Assembly (NCBI RefSeq): GCF_024227435.1
Contig: NZ_CP100445.1
Span: 1,919,369 to 1,983,368, forward strand
Reading direction: 5' to 3'
Source: Natrinema caseinilyticum
Lineage (GTDB): Archaea > Halobacteriota > Halobacteria > Halobacteriales > Natrialbaceae
DNA length: 64,000 nucleotides
The notes under the pieces were generated by a model. It saw only the letters and a program-made list of their open reading frames with translations. It searched no databases and had not been told where the DNA came from. Made by a program: the position numbers and the translations under genes. Positions 17,418 to 47,990 of this stretch are shown one piece after another (the stretch's first letter is position 1; the number at the start of each line of letters is the position of its first letter).

Positions 17418-17520
17418 CCGGGCCGTCTCGACTCGGCACCGAAAGGCGGCGACGAGCCGTAGAAGACCGAGCGTACGGGGGCAAGCGCATCTGGAAGCTA
17501 TCTTTAAACAGCGAGAGAAT

Positions 17521-17538
17521 CCCGTCCTTTAGGACGGG
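17521..17538. repeat. left-end hairpin of the insertion sequence
   Basis: CCCGTCC-TTTA-GGACGGG is a perfect 7-bp stem with the same TTTA loop as the right-end hairpin at 19027-19046. Hairpins of this type at both ends are what TnpA (HUH transposase) recognises in IS200/IS605 elements. Confidence 0.65.
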
Positions 17539-17571
17539 CGTGAATCGCGTCACTTGATTTCACAGCCGCCG

Positions 17572-17697
17572 CTAATCGGCGGAACTGGATTCCATACGTT
17601 CGTCGATGCAACCTCTCACGAGGCTGGATAGGTTGATGTGATTTTCGTCGATCCATTCGACTTGATCCTCCCGAATCGTTATCTGCTTCCGTTGCAT
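17572..17697 (-). CDS. 41-aa RHH-like mini-protein upstream of tnpB
   Basis: Reading leftward from the ATG at 17697: MQRKQITIREDQVEWIDENH, then INLSSLVRGCIDERMESSSAD and TAG. The pattern (short basic strand KQITI, helix with EWIDENHINLSSLVRGCIDE) is that of a ribbon-helix-helix DNA-binding protein, like CopG-type antitoxins. Near-identical 40-50 aa frames sit divergently upstream of tnpB in many haloarchaeal IS1341 elements. Its start is 56 bases from the tnpB start, so both promoters share one short AT-rich gap. It could repress tnpB. No toxin is seen. Confidence 0.75.
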   Translation of the reverse strand: MQRKQITIREDQVEWIDENHINLSSLVRGCIDERMESSSAD

Positions 17698-17752
17698 CAC
17701 GTCACGCTACAACTCCGTAATGTATAAGTGTGGCGTATGTGTATAGGTGTGT

Positions 17753-18988
17753 ATGGCAGAGGAAGTGACGAAAACGCTCGAGGCGACGCTTGCCCCGCCG
17801 ACACAGGGGAAAGCGGTGCGTCTCCGTCGCCTTCTCTCCACCTACCGCGAGGCGTTGCACGATGCGTTCGACTCCGGTGCCGATACGATGAACGGCGTCT
17901 CTGAAGTAGTAACGTCGTTCGACCTCCCGTATCAGGCGAAAGCTGCACTGTGTAGCTACGTCCCGAAGCTCCGGAAAACGTACAACGCCCGCGAGTTAGA
18001 CGACGAACACCCGCTCCGGCTCACGAACCAGGCCGCGAAGTTCGACCGGGATGAATCTCGACACCACGAGATTTGCTGGAACGTGCCCTTGCCGGGCTAC
18101 GGGACGAACTTCTGGATACCGCTCCGGGTCAATCCCGAGCAGGAATCGCTGTGGCACGATCTTCTCGGCGAGGATGCGAAGGCCGGGCAGATTCGGCTTC
18201 AGCAGAACCGGAGCAACTGGGTGTTGCACGTCACCGTCACCTACTCGGTCGAAGATCCAGAGACGGACGGCGACGAGACATACATCGGCTTCGATATCGG
18301 CGAATCCGCGTTGATTACGGGCTGTGCCCTCAAGCGCAACATGCCGACGAAACCGATGCTCGAAAGCGGCAGTCAAGCGCGACACCTCCGCAAAGAGATG
18401 TTCACGACGTTGAAACGGCTTCAGGAGCGAGACACCGGCGAGTGGCGAATTGACGAACGCTTCGACCACTACCAGAACGCACTCACGGATATCGTCGAGA
18501 AGGCGTCTCGAGAAGCCGCCGAGTACGCCAAGTCCTTCGAGAACCCGGTGATTGTGATGGAGGATCTGTCGTATATCCGTGAGAATCTGGACTACGGCAA
18601 GTACATGAACCGACGCTTGCACACGTGGGCGTTCGCCCGCCTTCAGGGCCGGATCGAAGACAAGGCCACCGAAGCCGGGATTCCGGTCGAGTTCGTGAAC
18701 CCGCGCTACACGTCCCAAACGTGCCACGAGTGCGGCCACATCGGCTCTCGTGGATCGCAAGCCGAGTTTACGTGTACGAACGACGACTGCCACGTAACAG
18801 AGTTCCAAGCAGATATCAACGCGGCGGCGAACATCGCCGGTCGCGTAGATCCGTGGGGAGAGAGCGTTCCTTGGAAACCGGAACGCGATGACTCGCCTCG
18901 GAACGGGAGCGCCAGTGACAGCGCCACAGTCCACCGCGAGACGAGCGAGAAATCCTCGCAGATGACGCTCGCAGCGTACTCGGACTGA
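17753..18988 (+). CDS. tnpB: TnpB, RNA-guided nuclease of the IS1341 element
   Basis: A 411-aa TnpB. The RuvC-like active site appears complete: first Asp in YIGFDIGESA near 177-186, Glu in VIVMEDLSYI near 265-274, third Asp in EFQADINAAANIAG near 347-360. The four-Cys zinc finger CHECGHIGSRG...CTNDDCH lies between the last two. The C-terminal tail is acidic and Ser-rich. TnpB nucleases use an RNA made from the element's 3' end to cut donor sites and keep the element in the genome. GTG at 17747 is in frame; ATG at 17753 is chosen. AT-rich GTATAAGTG stands upstream, shared with the divergent 41-aa gene. Confidence 0.93.
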   Translation: MAEEVTKTLEATLAPPTQGKAVRLRRLLSTYREALHDAFDSGADTMNGVSEVVTSFDLPYQAKAALCSYVPKLRKTYNARELDDEHPLRLTNQAAKFDRDESRHHEICWNVPLPGYGTNFWIPLRVNPEQESLWHDLLGEDAKAGQIRLQQNRSNWVLHVTVTYSVEDPETDGDETYIGFDIGESALITGCALKRNMPTKPMLESGSQARHLRKEMFTTLKRLQERDTGEWRIDERFDHYQNALTDIVEKASREAAEYAKSFENPVIVMEDLSYIRENLDYGKYMNRRLHTWAFARLQGRIEDKATEAGIPVEFVNPRYTSQTCHECGHIGSRGSQAEFTCTNDDCHVTEFQADINAAANIAGRVDPWGESVPWKPERDDSPRNGSASDSATVHRETSEKSSQMTLAAYSD

Positions 18989-19056
18989 AACCTACGGCAT
19001 AGCCGGAATCCCACTGTTGTGGGAAGCCTCGCCGTTTACGGCGAGGAGGATGTCAC
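18860..19056 (+). ncRNA. predicted omega RNA / sense-overlapping transcript of tnpB
   Basis: The 3' end of tnpB plus the right end of the element forms two strong hairpins (19010-19023 and 19027-19046) ending in GAGGATGTCAC. In IS605/IS1341 elements the guide RNA of TnpB comes from exactly this region, and haloarchaeal IS1341 tnpB genes are known to make sense-overlapping transcripts. The 3' boundary should be near 19056, with the guide reading into the flanking DNA; the 5' boundary is a guess. Seen: the hairpins and position. Inferred: the RNA. Confidence 0.5.
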
Positions 19057-33482: not shown

Positions 33483-33529
33483 TCCGATCCGTCCCGGGCC
33501 CGTGTCGCTGCTGACTGGCTCCCGTTTGT

Positions 33530-33799
33530 TCACTCCGAGGGCGATTCCGTGAGCCTGAACTCGAACTCCAGCATCCCCTCCGTCTTCACGTTCACTCCGC
33601 CGAGTTCGTCCGACAACTGCTCTCGCGCTCGAGAACTCGGTTCGATGGTAACGGAGACGCTGTTTGCGTTCGCGTTGTACGTGATGTTCCCGACTGCGAC
33701 GTCGAACGCGAAGAAGCCCGGGACCTCCTCTCTGAGTTGTGCGCGCACGTGGTCGAGGTCCGATCTCACGTCGGCCATCTCTTCGTTTAAGGTTCCCAT
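33530..33799 (-). CDS. small protein of unknown function under a palindromic promoter
   Basis: An 89-aa protein, MGTLNEEMADVRSDLDHVRA then QLREEVPGFFAFDVAVGNITYNANANSVSVTIEPSSRAREQ and GGVNVKTEGMLEFEFRLTE. It reads as one helix followed by three or four strands; no family recognised. Upstream in-frame ATGs exist at 33805 and 33826. The start at 33799 is chosen because it lies about 26 bases from a TATGATATGG box, whereas 33826 lies inside that box. It is convergent with the aldo/keto reductase gene. Confidence 0.7.
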   Translation of the reverse strand: MGTLNEEMADVRSDLDHVRAQLREEVPGFFAFDVAVGNITYNANANSVSVTIEPSSRAREQLSDELGGVNVKTEGMLEFEFRLTESPSE

Positions 33800-33809
33800 C
33801 TGCATCGCT

Positions 33810-33826
33810 ATGATACACCATATCAT
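33810..33826. promoter_or_regulatory. palindromic operator-like site over the TATA box of the 89-aa gene
   Basis: ATGATA-CACCA-TATCAT is a perfect 6-5-6 inverted repeat. On the reverse strand it overlaps the TATA-like TATGATATGG. A dimeric repressor bound here would block TBP/TFB, the common mode of archaeal repression. Confidence 0.5.
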
Positions 33827-33974
33827 AACGTTGGAGCCTGAACTGTACAGGCGGTCGTGAACGTCTCGAGGGAGCCTGCTTCGCACGGCCCTCAGAAGTT
33901 GAGGCTACCCGTCGCAATGCGTACGCCCGTCTCGATGTCGTCGCGTCAATTTCGGTAGTTCACGGCCCCAGTCC

Positions 33975-36566
33975 TCACCGTATATGCCGATCGAGCAGAC
34001 GTTCCCGAACGACGAGTAAGCTCGGTAACAGGGTCACGCAGCTTACGAACGCGAAGACGATACTCAACGCGGTCACGATACCGAAGCGCTGAAGCGGCGG
34101 CGAAAGCGCGAGCGCGAGGACCCCGAAGCCCGCTGCTGTCGTCGCTGCACTCCCCAGCAACGCACCGCCGGTTCCCGTGACTGCCGTCACCAGCGCTGCT
34201 TCGGCCGATTCGTTTCGTTCGAGTTCGTCGATAACCCGTTCACCGAGATGGATGCTATAGTCGACCCCGAGTCCGATGGCGAGACTGGTGATGACGACAG
34301 TCTCACTGTTGAACGGGATGTCGAGTAGCGCCATCGCGCCGAGTAACCACGCGAGCGCGAGGACGACGGGAACGATCAGCACGACCGCGAGGCCCGGTGT
34401 GCGGTACCGCCACCAGTACAGGCCGAGAAGGAATACCAGAACAACACTCAGTGTGACCGTAAACCCTTGGACGAGCGTCTCGAACAGGGCACCCTGGACG
34501 ACTGCGGTGACGACCGGACCACCCGTTGCGACGGCGTTGGCCGGTGCAGTCGCTTCGATACCAGACGCAACGTGACGGACATCGTCGGCAATCGACTGAG
34601 CAGACGCATCAGCTTGCACACCGACGATCACCCGGGCCGACACGTACGACCCGTTTTCCGCGCGGTACATTACGGATGACGCCCGCTCGGGTGCAACACC
34701 GTAGACGAGGTCATACACTTCGGCGACGTTCTCGTCGGGAAGCCCGTCACCGTCCGAATCGTGTGCGTCTATCGCGTTAGCTACTGTCTGATTCTCGGCG
34801 GCGACGGAGCGGAGAACGGTCGCTGGACTCTCGACGGCGGCAGTACCGTCGGCCTGCATGGCGATCGTTCCGTTCTGCGGTGCCGATTTCGGGGTGTCAT
34901 CGGTTGCTTCGAGCAGCGCCGGAGAGGTCACGTTCCCGCGTAGCAGTATCTGTGCTTCTGCCCCCTGCCCACGCTGCCGAAAGGTGTCGCTTAGGTACGC
35001 CAGATTCTCGCGGATGTCATAGTCTGCCGGGGCAAATGGTTCCGGAAGCGACTCCATCCAATCGGGGGCGTCTTCCGGGAGGAAGTCGGCTCGATTGAAT
35101 TCCGTATCCAGCCCGGTCGCACCGTAGGCACCGACGCCCGCCGCGACGAGACCGAGAACCAGAATGACGACCGGGATCTGATTCGTGAGGGTTGCGGTGC
35201 TCGAAAGAACGGTGCTGATAGGCCCATCTCCGACCCCGAAGGCGGACCGCCGTCGATCTCGTCCGAGGCGAGCGAGGAGGTTTTCGACCTCGAGTTTGAC
35301 GGCCGGGACCAGCGCCGTGAAGACGACGAACATTGCGATGATACCGGTAGCGCTCAGGAGAGCGAAGTCCCGAATCGAGGCCAGCGGGCTGACGTAGTTC
35401 GAGAAGAACCCGATCCCGGTCGTGAAGGCAGCGGCCGTCAGCGCGACGACGACACCCCTCATACTCAATCGCATAGCTGCGGTGGGTGATCGCGGGTCAC
35501 CGATCGCGCCGTCGTCCTCGAGCGCGCCCGTTCTAGCCTCTCGATAGCGCATGACGACGTGGAGTGAATAGTCGATGCTGAGCCCGACGAGGAGGAACGG
35601 GACGGCGATGAGGATCGAACTGGACGAGACTCCGAGCCAGCCCTGGGTACCTTGCAGCCACACCAGTACGATTCCGATCCCGAACAGGCTCACGACAACG
35701 TCGACCGGATCGCGGTAGGCGACACCGAGGACGACGAGCAGGAGGGCGACTGCGACGGGGGTGATGATGAGAAAACTATCGCCGATGGCCTGAGTGGACG
35801 CGTCATCGACGATGCCCTGCCCGAAGACGAACGCGTCACTGAACCGTTCGTCGACGAGCGATGCAGTGGCGACCTGTGCGTCGTACGTCTCCTGTGGTGT
35901 TTCACCATCGTCACCGGCAGTCGGCGAGTGGAAGACGAGCGTGAGCCTCGCCTCCGCACGCGTCGTTCCGGACTCGTAGTGTGTCGGGAGGGACGCAGTC
36001 GGGTCAGGGCCGGACGTGGTCACGTTCGGGTCGAGGACGTGCGCGACGAGTGACTCGACCTCCTCGGGCGAACGTGATTCGAGCGCTGCGATCTGTTCGT
36101 CTAGCGTGGGGGCCGGCGGCTGTTCGTGCCGAGCGCTCGCGGTCGAACCGTGGGTCTCGTTCCCGGCGGTCTGGTCCCGGACGTAGGCCGCAGTCGCAAC
36201 GGTATTTTCGATACCGATCGTGCTCGACTCCGCCCGTAGCGTCGCTTCGATGGATTCGTTCCGCTGTATCTCCCGTTGGAGACGGAGGCTCCGCAGGAGC
36301 GACTCGCGGGTGAGGACGTCACCGCCGTCCTTTCTGACGACGATTTGGGTGACTATCGCATCGTTCGTTCCGTACGTCGATTCGATCTCGTCGAAGGCCG
36401 CCTGCTCCTCGGAGTTGATACCCGCCTGCCCGATCGACCCATCCGGACTGGTGCCGACGACCGCACCAGCGCCGACGGCGATGGTGAGCAGAAACGACAG
36501 TGCGATCACGAGTCGACGTCGTGCGACGAGGGCGTCTGCATACCGTTGCGGCAGTTGTTCCCGCAT
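33975..36566 (-). CDS. MMPL/RND-family transporter
   Basis: An 863-aa membrane protein with the RND-superfamily duplication: an N-terminal helix (RRRLVIALSFLLTIAVGAGAVV), a large extracellular loop (about 45-260), five or six helices with the LVGLSIDYSLHVVMRYREAR motif near 335-355, a second N-type helix (IPVVILVLGLVAAGVGAYGA), a second loop, and a second helix set with SLAIGLGVDYSIHLGERVIDELER near 765-790. The two GL(S/G)xDY(S) motifs supply the proton-relay Asp residues. The substrate is unknown; related archaeal proteins are thought to move lipids or hydrophobic compounds. A TTG precedes the ATG at 36566. It stands behind the HTH-DUF7521 pair on the same strand. Confidence 0.92.
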   Translation of the reverse strand: MREQLPQRYADALVARRRLVIALSFLLTIAVGAGAVVGTSPDGSIGQAGINSEEQAAFDEIESTYGTNDAIVTQIVVRKDGGDVLTRESLLRSLRLQREIQRNESIEATLRAESSTIGIENTVATAAYVRDQTAGNETHGSTASARHEQPPAPTLDEQIAALESRSPEEVESLVAHVLDPNVTTSGPDPTASLPTHYESGTTRAEARLTLVFHSPTAGDDGETPQETYDAQVATASLVDERFSDAFVFGQGIVDDASTQAIGDSFLIITPVAVALLLVVLGVAYRDPVDVVVSLFGIGIVLVWLQGTQGWLGVSSSSILIAVPFLLVGLSIDYSLHVVMRYREARTGALEDDGAIGDPRSPTAAMRLSMRGVVVALTAAAFTTGIGFFSNYVSPLASIRDFALLSATGIIAMFVVFTALVPAVKLEVENLLARLGRDRRRSAFGVGDGPISTVLSSTATLTNQIPVVILVLGLVAAGVGAYGATGLDTEFNRADFLPEDAPDWMESLPEPFAPADYDIRENLAYLSDTFRQRGQGAEAQILLRGNVTSPALLEATDDTPKSAPQNGTIAMQADGTAAVESPATVLRSVAAENQTVANAIDAHDSDGDGLPDENVAEVYDLVYGVAPERASSVMYRAENGSYVSARVIVGVQADASAQSIADDVRHVASGIEATAPANAVATGGPVVTAVVQGALFETLVQGFTVTLSVVLVFLLGLYWWRYRTPGLAVVLIVPVVLALAWLLGAMALLDIPFNSETVVITSLAIGLGVDYSIHLGERVIDELERNESAEAALVTAVTGTGGALLGSAATTAAGFGVLALALSPPLQRFGIVTALSIVFAFVSCVTLLPSLLVVRERLLDRHIR

Positions 36567-36659
36567 CAAATACTCCCTCCCGTTGCTGACGAACGCGGTT
36601 CCCGCGTGTCGGCCCGACGAAGCGCCATTGTGGAACTGCTCATCATCAGACGCTCGGTG

Positions 36660-36677
36660 CGTACCTCACAAGGTACG
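36660..36677. promoter_or_regulatory. palindrome CGTACCT-CACA-AGGTACG upstream of the MMPL gene
   Basis: A perfect 7-4-7 inverted repeat in the 269-bp gap 36567-36835, about 95 bases before the MMPL start. The same gap has a 13-bp tandem repeat (AGAAGCAGAGCGC twice, near 36788-36813). The palindrome is a candidate operator, with the HTH protein coded at 37111 as the obvious ligand. Confidence 0.5.
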
Positions 36678-36835
36678 AAGGAAGGGTCCCAGAACGTGAG
36701 ATAACCACAGTACCGACCTTTCAGCGGTACTCGCGTGGTCTCCAATTGCGGGACCGACACTGTCGCTCGAGTCGCACAACGCAGGGAGAAGCAGAGCGCA
36801 GAAGCAGAGCGCCGACCAGTTACACGACCCCGTCG

Positions 36836-37114
36836 TTAGTAACCGTACAATCCGTGGATCATGATGAGAAACCCGATACAGAGGAGGAGGCTTTCGAAGA
36901 GCATACCCTGGACACTCGGCACGCCGAGGAGATGATGGAGCACGCCGATCAGAAACGTCCCGATCGTGATCACGATGAGACCGACTGCGAAGTACTGGAG
37001 CCCGTCGATCTGCGTTCGTCGATACGCGCGATACGCCAACAGCGAGACGATGCCGCCAAGAACGAGGGCGACAGTCTTGATGACGCCAAGTAACACGACG
37101 AGGTCGTCTATCAT
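36836..37114 (-). CDS. DUF7521-like membrane protein (copy 1)
   Basis: A 92-aa protein with three hydrophobic helices: LVVLLGVIKTVALVLGGIVSLLAYRAYRR, LQYFAVGLIVITIGTFLIGVLHHLL and GMLFESLLLCIGFLIMIHGLYGY. The AYRAYRRTQIDGLQYFAVGL joint matches the AYRGYRRNDSRPMLFIAVGF of the second copy at 38033, showing that they are paralogues. The family (DUF7521) is found in haloarchaea next to HTH regulators. The start overlaps the HTH stop (ATGA), so the pair is translationally coupled. Function unknown. Confidence 0.85.
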   Translation of the reverse strand: MIDDLVVLLGVIKTVALVLGGIVSLLAYRAYRRTQIDGLQYFAVGLIVITIGTFLIGVLHHLLGVPSVQGMLFESLLLCIGFLIMIHGLYGY

Positions 37115-37566
37115 GATTCCTTCTTCATCTCCGACCAGAACGTGGCCATGCGATCCTCTGCGTCTTTCGTTCGTCGATCGATAGAGACGGTAAACTCGTC
37201 GTCGTCGTCGATGCCGATCGAGATATCCGTGAAATCCCGTTCGTAGAGTGTCGCGTTTGGTCCATCGCGGCGAACTTCCGTATATTCTCTAACGAGGGAT
37301 GCCTCTCGGAGGCGTTCGAGTTTCCTGTACACCGTCGACCTCGCAAGATCGCATTTCGTCTGGAGGTCAGCCGCGGATTTCGGTTCACGCAACGCCGTGA
37401 GTATCGCTCTGCATTTTTCGTCCTCGAGTGACCGCAACACCACCGACACGGGAGGCGACTCCGCATCCCTCGTATCGCTCTGATCCGTCTCACTGGACGT
37501 CTGCGTGACGGACGACCACGTTGGAATCAGAAAAAGACGATTTCGATTCGCATATTCTTCAGGCAT
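37111..37566 (-). CDS. winged-HTH (ArsR-like) regulator coupled to DUF7521 copy 1
   Basis: A 151-aa protein. After a disordered N-terminal 40 residues comes a winged helix: SVVLRSLEDEKCRAILTALREPKSAADLQTKCDLARSTVYRKLERLREASLVREYTEV near 41-98, then a wing GPNATLYERDFTDISIGIDDDDEFTVSI and a C-terminal helix ATFWSEMKKES for dimerisation. It is close in plan to the second regulator at 38379. The upstream region contains ACCCG-TAT-CGGGT (37582-37594) and AGCTG-T-CAGCT (37607-37617), both possible operators, so autoregulation is likely. Confidence 0.85.
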   Translation of the reverse strand: MPEEYANRNRLFLIPTWSSVTQTSSETDQSDTRDAESPPVSVVLRSLEDEKCRAILTALREPKSAADLQTKCDLARSTVYRKLERLREASLVREYTEVRRDGPNATLYERDFTDISIGIDDDDEFTVSIDRRTKDAEDRMATFWSEMKKES

Positions 37567-37790
37567 ATCTGTGAGGTATCGACCCGTATCGGGTTGTGGC
37601 AGTGTAAGCTGTCAGCTACTCGGTTTTGAGAGCAGAGGATAATATGGATACCGGGTTGTCCCAGATTGATGGACTAGCAGGGAAGCCGATGTCCGTTCTG
37701 GCAGCCGGAATTGGACGGTTGTGTCGGTAATTGCTCCGATGCACAGAGATCCAGTCCCTCATCGTGGGATCGGACTCCGACAGTGCAGAC

Positions 37791-37830
37791 GTGACATCCT
37801 CCCCGGCGTTTACGCCGGGGTTTCCCGTAC
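37791..37830 (-). mobile_element. orphan right-end scar of an IS1341-type element
   Basis: The plus strand begins GTGACATCCTCC, then the hairpin CCCCGGCG-TTTA-CGCCGGGG (37801-37820), then TTTCCC and a second weaker CCC...GGG stem. This is the reverse complement of the layout at the right end of the intact element at 19010-19056, which shares the 12-base GTGACATCCTCC (as its complement), the TTTA-type loop and a second hairpin behind it. A tnpB would be expected at higher coordinates, but only a kinase relic is found, so this is a solo end left by deletion or excision. Confidence 0.65.
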
Positions 37831-37864
37831 CGCAGGTGGGATATAGACGACCGGGCCGTAATGG

Positions 37865-38028
37865 CGACGGTACTCGACGCTGGATTCGTCGACGTTCCGG
37901 ACACGCCCCGAATCGGCGTGGAACAGCCCCTCAAACGGGTCCTCGAGCGACGCATCTCCGGTCGCCACGGTCTCCCAGCGCTTTGCGACGACGGGACCGA
38001 GTTCCAGCGGTTCGACGGCGTCGACGTC
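37865..38028 (-). pseudogene. relic of a histidine kinase (fragment between HisKA and HATPase)
   Basis: The reverse strand from 38028 reads DVDAVEPLELGPVVAKRWET, then VATGDASLEDPFEGLFHADS and GRVRNV. This aligns without gaps to DVDAIEPLELGAVVEECWEN... of the intact kinase coded at 46122-47990, with 32 of 46 residues the same by my count. No start, H-box or ATP-binding motifs remain: the right side runs straight into the DUF7521 copy 2 stop and the left side loses similarity before the insertion-sequence scar. It is a decayed fragment, most likely produced with the nearby mobile-element event. Confidence 0.75.
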
Positions 38029-38032
38029 GGAC

Positions 38033-38377
38033 TCATGCCGGCATCCGCAGCGCGTACAGAATCGCGATCAACCCGGCTACCTGACTGCACTGGCCGAGAA
38101 CCGCGGCGAGCGTCTCCGAAACGAACGGAAACGTCACGTAGAGCAATAGTAACAGAAACGGCACGGCAAGCGCCAGCGCGAACCCGACTGCGATGAACAA
38201 CATCGGCCGGCTGTCGTTTCGTCGATACCCTCGGTAGGCCTGGTACGCGATGAACGATCCGATGAGCGCGCTCAAAACGTCGGTGGTCTGAACGAACGTC
38301 GTCACCCACTCCGGCGGTAGCGCCACGTCCCAGAGCTGTAACAACGCTGTCCCGACAGGATGAGTGATCGGTCCCAC
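38033..38377 (-). CDS. DUF7521-like membrane protein (copy 2)
   Basis: A 114-aa protein with a short N-terminal segment and three hydrophobic helices: TTDVLSALIGSFIAYQAYRGYRR, PMLFIAVGFALALAVPFLLLLLYVTF and TLAAVLGQCSQVAGLIAILYALR. It is a paralogue of the 36836 gene, sharing the AYxxYRR loop and FIAVGF start of helix 2. It starts with GTG at 38377, one base after the stop of the upstream HTH gene. There is no ATG in a better place. Its stop abuts the kinase relic. Confidence 0.82.
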   Translation of the reverse strand: MGPITHPVGTALLQLWDVALPPEWVTTFVQTTDVLSALIGSFIAYQAYRGYRRNDSRPMLFIAVGFALALAVPFLLLLLYVTFPFVSETLAAVLGQCSQVAGLIAILYALRMPA

Positions 38378-38378
38378 G

Positions 38379-38723
38379 TCATATCCCCTCGATTAGCCTC
38401 GTGAACCGATCGGCGATATCCTCGTGACGGTCGAGACGGAGCGCCAGCCCCTCGTCCTCGAGTTCGACCGTAATCCGCTTCAGATTCGTCGCGTAGACCG
38501 TTCGGTGGTGACCCCGATCGGGGTCGGGTCTGGTCCGTTCGACGAGAAGCCCGCACTCACGGAGGTCATCCAGTCGCCGGTACACCGTGGGTTTGGACGC
38601 GTCGCAGTGATCGCTCAACGTATTCGCTGTCATGGGTTCCTGGCTCGTCTGGGTGAGGATCGTTCGCACCGTCGGGTCACTGAGCAAGTCCCCGATCGTT
38701 TCGACGTCGACCTCCTCACTCAC
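38379..38723 (-). CDS. winged-HTH (ArsR-like) regulator coupled to DUF7521 copy 2
   Basis: A 114-aa regulator, with a GTG start (38723): MSEEVDVETIGDLLSDPTVR onward. The HTH is TILTQTSQEPMTANTLSDHCDASKPTVYRRLDDLRECGLLVERT near 21-64; the wing is HHRTVYATNLKRITVELEDEG; the end RHEDIADRFTRLIEGI is a dimer helix. TTTATG on the reverse strand is centred about 27 bases before the GTG, which supports a leaderless start. It shares plan and the downstream partner with the 37111 regulator; the two pairs are probably an old duplication. Confidence 0.87.
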   Translation of the reverse strand: MSEEVDVETIGDLLSDPTVRTILTQTSQEPMTANTLSDHCDASKPTVYRRLDDLRECGLLVERTRPDPDRGHHRTVYATNLKRITVELEDEGLALRLDRHEDIADRFTRLIEGI

Positions 38724-38746
38724 GGTTTTCGTGTGTACAGAGAAGG

Positions 38747-38756
38747 CACATAAAGG
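38747..38756 (-). promoter_or_regulatory. TATA box of the second HTH-DUF7521 pair
   Basis: The reverse strand reads CCCTTTATGTG with CGAAAACC upstream, a good TATA/BRE pair about 27 bases from the GTG at 38723. Confidence 0.6.
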
Positions 38757-38828
38757 GGTTTTCGCTACTGCAGCCGCTGCAGTCGTGCGCGCCGAGTTTT
38801 TCGTCCCCGTCCCGTCGGTGGCAGTGTG

Positions 38829-39269
38829 ATGCAACCGACTCGTCCGATCGGACCGCTCGAACGGATCGTCGAACGAACCCGTCGCGGAGCGACGAGGCTG
38901 GCTGTGCGGGTTGGGGGCCCCGACGGCGGTCGACTCCGACCCACCGCCGGCGGCGGACTCCTCGTCGTCCTCGCTAGCATCGCCGTGAGTCTCGCGTCGG
39001 CCACGGTTCTCGGCGACAGCGTCCGCATCCGGTGGAGCGTCGGCACCTACTACGGCCCGGAGTACGCGCCGACGCCGCTCGCGCTGGCCGCGTTTCCCGC
39101 GTTCGTCGCACTGACGTATCTCGGATCGCGAGCGCTCGCCGCGGGCCTCGAGCGCGCCGACGCGTTCGTCACCGATCACGTACGCGGTCTCTACGAACTG
39201 TGCGTCGTCGCGACGCTGACGACCATCGTGGTCGCACAGGCCGCGTTCGTCGTCGCGAATCTCCTGTGA
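38829..39269 (+). CDS. membrane protein, DUF1648-like
   Basis: A 146-aa protein: a cytosolic Arg-rich N-terminus (residues 1-42), then three hydrophobic helices GLLVVLASIAVSLASATVLG, TPLALAAFPAFVALTYLGSRAL and YELCVVATLTTIVVAQAAFVVANLL. Between the first two is VRIRWSVGTYYGPEYAPTPL, which recalls the IPIHWNxxGxPD loop of DUF1648/SdpI-like proteins (bacteriocin-immunity type). That likeness is weak. Start at ATG 38829; a GTG directly before it is in frame. It is divergent from the HTH regulator and may share its control region. Confidence 0.75.
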   Translation: MQPTRPIGPLERIVERTRRGATRLAVRVGGPDGGRLRPTAGGGLLVVLASIAVSLASATVLGDSVRIRWSVGTYYGPEYAPTPLALAAFPAFVALTYLGSRALAAGLERADAFVTDHVRGLYELCVVATLTTIVVAQAAFVVANLL

Positions 39270-46121: not shown

Positions 46122-47990
46122 CTACGTATCGGCTTCGAAGGAATCGTCGAAGTGGACGGTCCGGGCCCCGACGAAGTCGAACCGCGCACCGCCGGATTCG
46201 CTCTCGGTGACGTCGACGTCCCACCCGTGGGCCTGTGCGATCGCGAGGACGATATTCAGGCCGAGTCCCGTCCCGTCGTCGTTCGTCGTCCACCCCAGTT
46301 CGAGCACCTGATCGCGGTCAGTTTCCGGAATCCCGGGCCCGTCGTCGGCAACGTAAAAGCCGCCCTCGGAAACGCCAACGGAGACGGAGACGGTCTGTCC
46401 ACCGTGTTCGATCGCGTTCCGAAAGAGGTTCTCGAACACGTTCCGGATGCGCCTCGAGTCGGCGTGGAAGAGCCCCTCCGAATCGACCCGGATGGACGCA
46501 TCTTCGGTCGCCACGTTCTCCCAACACTCCTCGACGACGGCGCCGAGTTCCAGCGGCTCGATGGCGTCGACGTCGTATCCGTTCCGGACCATCGTCAGCA
46601 CGTCGTCGATGATCCCCGCCATTCGATCGAATACCCGCCCCATCTCGTCGAGTTCCGCGATCGAGTGGTCCGCTCGAGCGCCTTCTAACAGCGCGTAGGC
46701 AACGTTGAGTGGATTTCTGAGGTCGTGGGCCAGGATGCTCGCGAACTCGTCGAGTCGTTCGTTTTGCCGCTCTACGGTACGCTCGTGTGCGAGTCGATTC
46801 AGGGCAGTTTCTGCGTTCACCGACAGGATCGACGCGAGTTCGTCGTCCGACGGATCGAACGCGCTGACGTTCGGATCGACGATACTGATCACCCCGTGGT
46901 CCCCGATCGGGAGGTAAAGCGCAGAACGGACGTCACCGCGGTCGTAGCCGTCGTCGACGGTGCGGACATCGTCGTACCGGATGAGGTTCCCGCGGTCGTA
47001 CGCACGGCTCGCCGGATTCTCACCGACGGTCGGATAGACCGGTCGATCCCCCATGTCCGCTTTCGCCTCGTCGGTAACGGCGATCGGATGCAGATGCGTT
47101 TCGTCGGCGAGTCGGACCACGGTACTGCGGTATCCGAGTATCGTCTTCGAAGCGTCCGCGACGAGCCGGGCGATTTCTTCGCGGTCGTCCGCTTGCATCA
47201 GGTGACGCGTCGCCTCGTGGAGCGCGTGGAGTTGTCGCTCGTACTCCTTTCGGGCCGTCACCTCGCGGAAGACGCCAGCGATCAGCCGGTCGCCCTGCAA
47301 TTCGAACACGTGGGCGTTGATTTCGACCGGGATTTTCTCGCCGGCTTTGGTTTCGACGTGTATGTCCGAACCGTCCGGCAACTGCGTGAAGATCGACTGT
47401 TCGTCGGCGATGTGCTGTTCGAAGAGGTCGCGATAGCGTGCGTTCTCCGTCGATGGATGCAAGATGGACTGGCTCTTTCCGACGAGTTCGTTCGGCTCGT
47501 ATCCGAGCAGGTCCGTCGTCTTTTCGTTCATCTCGACGATCTCACCGGTCGTCGCATCGGCGACGACGACGGCATCGGGAACCGCCTCGAGGATCGTCTG
47601 ATACTTCGTCCGAAGCGCGTACTGGTCGCTAACGTCCCGGACTGCGGCCATAATCTCGAGTCCGAAATCGCTCTCGATCGGACTCAGACTGATGTCGACC
47701 GGAATAAGAGTCCCGTCTTTCCGGCGGCCGAACAGATCGATATTCGCACCCATCGGCCGAGTTTCGGGGTCGTCGATGTACCGATCCCGTTTCGTGACGT
47801 GTTCGTCGCGGGACGCTTCCGGCACGATGACCTCGATGGGGTCGCCGACGAGTTCGTCCGGTTCGTAGCCGAACAGATCCACTACTCGTCTGTTCGCGTA
47901 CGTGATCCGTCCGTCGGCATCGACGAGAATGATAGCATCGGGTGACGCTTCGCAGATCGCTTCGTATCGGTGACGGGAGTGGCGAGGCAT
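46122..47990 (-). CDS. PAS-PAS-GAF sensor histidine kinase
   Basis: A 622-aa soluble kinase. PAS 1 is at about 5-120 (YEAICEASPDAIILVDADGR, GYEPDELVGDPIEVIVP), PAS 2 at 125-245 (AVPDAVVVADATTGEIVEMN), GAF at 255-405. HisKA has the phosphorylated His near 421 in FASILAHDLRNPLNVAYALL. The ATPase has the N box FRNAIEHGG, G1 VADDGPGIPETD and G2 GTGLGLNIVLAIAQAHGW. No membrane helix, so it senses a cytosolic cue such as redox or light through PAS/GAF ligands. No response regulator is adjacent. A decayed fragment of a relative lies at 37865. Confidence 0.94.
   Translation of the reverse strand: MPRHSRHRYEAICEASPDAIILVDADGRITYANRRVVDLFGYEPDELVGDPIEVIVPEASRDEHVTKRDRYIDDPETRPMGANIDLFGRRKDGTLIPVDISLSPIESDFGLEIMAAVRDVSDQYALRTKYQTILEAVPDAVVVADATTGEIVEMNEKTTDLLGYEPNELVGKSQSILHPSTENARYRDLFEQHIADEQSIFTQLPDGSDIHVETKAGEKIPVEINAHVFELQGDRLIAGVFREVTARKEYERQLHALHEATRHLMQADDREEIARLVADASKTILGYRSTVVRLADETHLHPIAVTDEAKADMGDRPVYPTVGENPASRAYDRGNLIRYDDVRTVDDGYDRGDVRSALYLPIGDHGVISIVDPNVSAFDPSDDELASILSVNAETALNRLAHERTVERQNERLDEFASILAHDLRNPLNVAYALLEGARADHSIAELDEMGRVFDRMAGIIDDVLTMVRNGYDVDAIEPLELGAVVEECWENVATEDASIRVDSEGLFHADSRRIRNVFENLFRNAIEHGGQTVSVSVGVSEGGFYVADDGPGIPETDRDQVLELGWTTNDDGTGLGLNIVLAIAQAHGWDVDVTESESGGARFDFVGARTVHFDDSFEADT

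Follow-up and report, generated by a model that had tools for sequence, protein, structure and literature searches.

Terminal-only remnants of IS605-type/IS1341 transposons and PATEs are described from Haloquadratum walsbyi, where the loss of the core leaves 52 bp (PMC3119063). A second kind of sequence relevant here is a gene cassette encoding an HTH regulator, a DUF7521 protein and a transporter. Plasmid records of Haladaptatus, Halostella, Natrinema zhouii and Haloferax larsenii carry this cassette at 69–76% DNA identity to the one described below, and annotate its transporter as an MMPL family transporter. The papers searched contain no mention of DUF7521.

The locus described here lies in Natrinema caseinilyticum, in a stretch of 64,000 nucleotides (the window; G000:C1:1919369-1983368) of a 4.77-Mb genome. 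It is probably a lineage-specific insertion scar, apparently without present function. On the minus strand the order is HTH_1, DUF7521, 46 kinase codons, 46 bp, the tip of a transposable element, a regulatory region, HTH_2, DUF7521_2, the MMPL/RND transporter and the gene at 33886-33530. The features are as follows.

33975..36569, minus strand: MMPL/RND-type transporter of the inserted cassette, with 63–80% identity per aligned piece in seven of the eight related loci.
36836..37114, minus strand: DUF7521_2, protein of the inserted cassette (Pfam PF24365, E 3.6e-27).
37111..37566, minus strand: HTH_2, regulator of the inserted cassette (Pfam HTH_20).
37567..37790, minus strand: putative regulatory region of the HTH_2 cassette, 224 bp, with a DNA match at 37604-37681 to three cassettes and an operator-like site at 37755-37769.
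37791..37844, minus strand: right end (tip) of an element of IS1341 type (TnpB-only, IS200/IS605), with the outer edge at 37791 and the inner side towards 37844, up to 94% identical to the right ends of related elements.
37845..37890, no strand: 46-bp spacer from tip to kinase fragment, matching neither piece, with no kinase continuation.
37891..38028, minus strand: histidine-kinase fragment of 46 codons, a non-coding relic, identical in 32 of 46 amino acids and 80% of nucleotides to the kinase at 46437-46574.
38033..38377, minus strand: resident DUF7521 protein (Pfam PF24365), with a full or partial orthologue in 14 sister loci.
38379..38741, minus strand: resident HTH regulator HTH_1 (Pfam HTH_20), syntenic in sisters.
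46122..47990, minus strand: intact PAS-GAF-HisKA-HATPase histidine kinase (Pfam), the nearest relative of the fragment.

An earlier, sequence-only reading of the window had recognised an IS1341 right end with a hairpin at 37791, and this assignment is borne out. GTGACATCCTCC and the hairpin begin at that position, and the 54-bp tip (37791-37844) matches both G000:C1:3518505-3518559 in its own genome (87% over 55 nt, E 2.7e-11) and a copy in genome G022 (94%, E 6e-17). The IS1341-type assignment is right because a full TnpB frame precedes the right end of the matching copy at 3.518 Mb. Near the window tip there is no TnpB match within 1.5 kb and no left end of its element family; the sole full left-end match in the window, at 17498-17557, belongs to another element. 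With no TnpB match within 1.5 kb, the solo tip is a relic of an IS1341-type element and not a working member. Of the two ends that a PATE or terminal-only element would have without its core, only the right one is recognised; two or three nucleotides beside it resemble a left-end start, but this is no proof.

Intact copies have the TnpB stop codon 8 nt ahead of an ATATCCC arm, and the inner side of the window tip begins with ATATCCC. Copies with this arm number 23 and occur in 13 of the 29 genus genomes; their TnpB is at least 332 aa long in 19, 18 and 47 aa long in two, and missing from two, the window copy and one in G022. The latter (L184, G022:C2:442393-442446) is also a right-end tip standing alone with no TnpB; it shares 94% identity with the window tip and is cut near the same place. 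Nine exact tips occur in the own genome, with a TnpB match on the inner side in four, a 40-residue match in one and none in four, a census in which nine of eleven TnpB frames served as queries (those of L101 and L103 were left out), so that TnpBs of such kinds could be missed. The window also holds a complete-looking TnpB-only element at 17498-19056, whose left end is 90% identical to that of the solo tip's family; the TnpB (17747-18988), however, shares only about 29% identity with the other TnpBs tested, and the right end belongs to a different subtype.

Next to the tip the sequence-only reading had placed 46 residues with 32 identities to a kinase encoded 8 kb away. These identities stand, at 80% in the DNA, and the match to the own kinase covers 138 nt with 27 nucleotide differences (E 2.3e-31 in the 4.77-Mb genome). 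The homologous codons run from 37891 to 38028, not from 37865, and their counterpart at 46437-46574 is 8.5 kb away. Likewise the two relics are side by side as described, but not in contact, since the 46 bp at 37845-37890 lie between them. The kinase homology starts 4 nt after the stop codon of the resident DUF7521 gene, the two closest named matches of which are in Natrinema hispanicum and Haloterrigena sp. H1. Neither relic is part of a gene, as the sequence-only reading had said of full genes: the tip has no TnpB or left end attached, and the 46-codon fragment contains no Pfam domain, HisKA and HATPase in one frame included. The two HTH-DUF7521 pairs said to flank the relics are confirmed by Pfam PF24365 and HTH_20.

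Within its own genome the fragment has a sole other match, the kinase at 46122-47990. Among 125 family genomes, the longer matches that were traced proved to be kinases of this kind, the others being short and weak; the 46-bp spacer gives short, weak matches only in the same genomes. The fragment is an extra kinase copy, because the kinase gene itself is found at a conserved position, both here and in 10 of the 14 sister loci. Its DNA identity is 80% to the own kinase, 75% to the orthologue in G005 and 62–69% to 13 other kinases. Differences between the fragment and the own kinase fall on the three codon positions as 9/7/11, compared with 10/5/17 between the own and G005 kinases, and the fragment breaks five otherwise invariant columns where each of 15 kinases breaks none to three (none to four when the fragment is left out). 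This pattern would fit drift without coding constraint, in a small sample of 27 differences. In a tree of 16 sequences the fragment groups with the own and G005 kinases, and the branching order among them is not settled (AU p for the fragment split 0.58 with the own kinase, 0.49 with that of G005 and 0.06 outside both). The fragment may therefore come from another strain.

Comparison with sister genomes indicates what the locus looks like when empty. We located 14 sister loci, each with a full or partial DUF7521 orthologue; the other 14 of 28 genus relatives gave none. The gap after DUF7521 extends for about 130 bp or less to the next gene's match in all 14, compared with about 4.1 kb in the own genome. 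A transporter, a second HTH-DUF7521 pair, an element tip and a kinase scrap are each absent from the gap in all 14 sister loci. The next gene is that at 33530 in 11 loci and an aldo-keto reductase gene in three. G022 and G002 show weak transporter matches (26–29%) beyond the aldo-keto reductase gene, which are excluded from the cassette count. The kinase gene is absent from the loci of G022, G002, G017 and G016. Variation also affects the neighbouring genes: five of the 14 loci (L076-L080, from G017, G012, G008, G007 and G016) match the resident DUF7521 only in part, in G020 HTH_1 occupies two frames, and three loci have no match to the 33530 gene. From the partial DUF7521 matches, the HTH_1-DUF7521 pair seems to have been lost repeatedly in sisters. 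The sequence-only reading had called the place a rearrangement hotspot, for which truncated or missing neighbours in several sisters offer weak support; however, other insertions are seen in the gap in none of the 14 loci.

Most of the additional DNA is accounted for by the cassette. Eight related loci were compared, seven of which have HTH, DUF7521 and transporter genes in this order and one of which has no transporter match. For HTH_2, the first ten matches listed outside the own genome are 59–71% identical. In other haloarchaea cassette relatives occupy unrelated places, several of them on plasmids, and none of the eight loci has a kinase relative or a DNA match to the tip. Within the own genome there is no second copy of 36500-37790 apart from a 28-nt match. 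The G+C content of the insert is low, with only two of 120 sampled 4.1-kb windows as low or lower.

Operator-like sites of the form TCCCA-N5-TGGGA, or close to it, precede HTH_2 in all eight relatives (L112-L118 and L120), and such palindromes also precede the transporter in all seven relatives that have one; of 250-bp stretches drawn at random from the window, about 1% contain a comparable site. Our locus retains TCCCAGAACGTGAGA before the transporter (36687-36701) and a degenerate TCCCACGATGAGGGA (TCCCA-N5-AGGGA, 37755-37769) about 21 bp from the tip, the latter not counted by the palindrome scan. When the stretch with the degenerate site was aligned with the relatives, the score was reached by 16–18 of 500 shuffles for the three best, by 75–132 for three others and by more than 300 for the remaining two. 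The arrangement of these palindromes suggests that HTH_2 would control itself and the transporter. The DNA between the tip and HTH_2 is, on this evidence, the putative regulatory region of the cassette and not a relic. Because cassette regulatory DNA appears to reach to about 21 bp from the tip, the tip marks the upstream edge of the cassette.

These observations lead us to propose the following history, in which the order of events is our inference and for which no genome at an intermediate stage was found. The HTH-DUF7521-MMPL transporter cassette makes up most of the roughly 4.1 kb that separates resident DUF7521 from the 33530-33886 gene; it may have come from a plasmid, and most likely it settled in the gap carrying a truncated element on its upstream side. 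There a TnpB-only element would have inserted, and the subsequent loss of the core and the left end would have left the 54-bp tip. Most of the join between tip and DUF7521 would be filled and closed by 138 bp copied from the local kinase gene, or from a close relative's, and this copy would have drifted without coding constraint. Both the source of the fragment and its copying during an error-prone join are inferred. Breaks in Haloferax volcanii are repaired by microhomology-mediated end joining and recombination (PMC7776575), which makes an error-prone join plausible. The specific proposal that the kinase scrap is templated filler, copied during end joining as the cassette integrated, is nevertheless doubtful. 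Microhomology at the DUF7521/kinase join was considered as a cause and rejected, the similarity being at chance level (scores as high are reached at 163 of 1838 positions in the kinase and at 1399 of 20000 in the window). If the filler reading is true, the locus would be a natural haloarchaeal record of an integration that was closed with a copy of DNA from a gene 8.5 kb away.

An insertion explains the locus better than the deletion of something shared by ancestry, because the sisters show a short empty gap. The sequence-only reading had supposed that an entire element and a second, entire kinase gene once stood here and that deletion left one end and one fragment. Part of this agrees with our results: both pieces are truncated remnants, core and left end of the element are gone, and a cut from the kinase gene into the inside of an adjacent element would give the present order. 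A full kinase gene at this place is where the account falters. The search for one, or for a full element, that had been recommended in sister genomes found neither in the gap of any of the 14 loci, no kinase relative accompanies any of the eight cassettes, and 46 bp of DNA between the pieces would be left unexplained. We thus regard this deletion as unlikely, and deletion of a shared ancestral kinase is disfavoured by the same 14 short, empty gaps. An ancestral block lost from every sister is far less probable still: truncated or missing genes beside the gap in several sisters do indicate that losses happen here, but all 14 sister loci would have to have lost the block down to a plain gap, and cassette relatives lie at other places and on plasmids.

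A possible, though less probable, alternative to the stepwise scar is that the block, fragment included, arrived ready-made from another genome, similar to Natrinema, where cassette, element and kinase adjoined. The age of the fragment equals the split from the G005 kinase within error, and cassettes of this kind do occur on plasmids; however, neither the fragment search in 125 family genomes nor the eight cassette loci include such a donor. It is also conceivable, though we give it hardly any credence, that the relics are useful: the tip could serve as a terminator or as an orphan guide-RNA end, or a transcript that covers the fragment could act on the kinase message. The tip hairpin is strong (-24.9 kcal/mol for 56 nt) and the fragment retains 80% identity over 138 nt. 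The omega-RNA, or reRNA, consists of a transcribed scaffold reaching inwards from the right end, plus a guide. Inward of the 54-bp tip the sequence has been replaced, and the adjacent stretch that would supply the guide-RNA scaffold in intact elements is gone. Moreover, 33500-39000 contains no Rfam match to a known RNA family, and the relics have no counterpart in sisters. An insertion scar with no current function remains our preferred reading.

By itself the locus matters little beyond marking the boundary of one inserted cassette in a chromosome of Natrinema type. Were strain-level relatives to show the steps, it might exemplify the way in which cassettes of plasmid type and broken TnpB elements become established in the chromosomes of haloarchaea. 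The operator-like palindrome common to the promoters of HTH-DUF7521 and the MMPL transporter is more useful, for assigning a role to regulators of this kind.

Compared with the described systems, the tip resembles the Haloquadratum walsbyi remnants in being a short, palindrome-bearing end after loss of the TnpB core, 52 bp there and 54 bp here. In the remnants as described there (PMC3119063), however, the core was lost between two near-terminal palindromes and both ends are fused, whereas here only right-end sequence is recognised and a left end was not found. The intact IS1341-type element of the own genome (G000:C1, about 3.517–3.519 Mb) shares a right end that is 87% identical to the tip over 55 nt but, unlike the tip, has a full TnpB and a left end. 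The plasmid cassettes of Natrinema zhouii (NZ_CP084882.1) and Haladaptatus pallidirubidus (NZ_CP085305.1) contain the same genes as the window cassette, and the related cassettes examined for operators have TCCCA-N5-TGGGA sites as it does; in contrast to the window, the eight related cassette loci carry neither a kinase relative nor a DNA match to the tip. Haloquadratum is already known to carry terminal-only remnants of elements of this type, and the locus is ordinary debris of known kinds.
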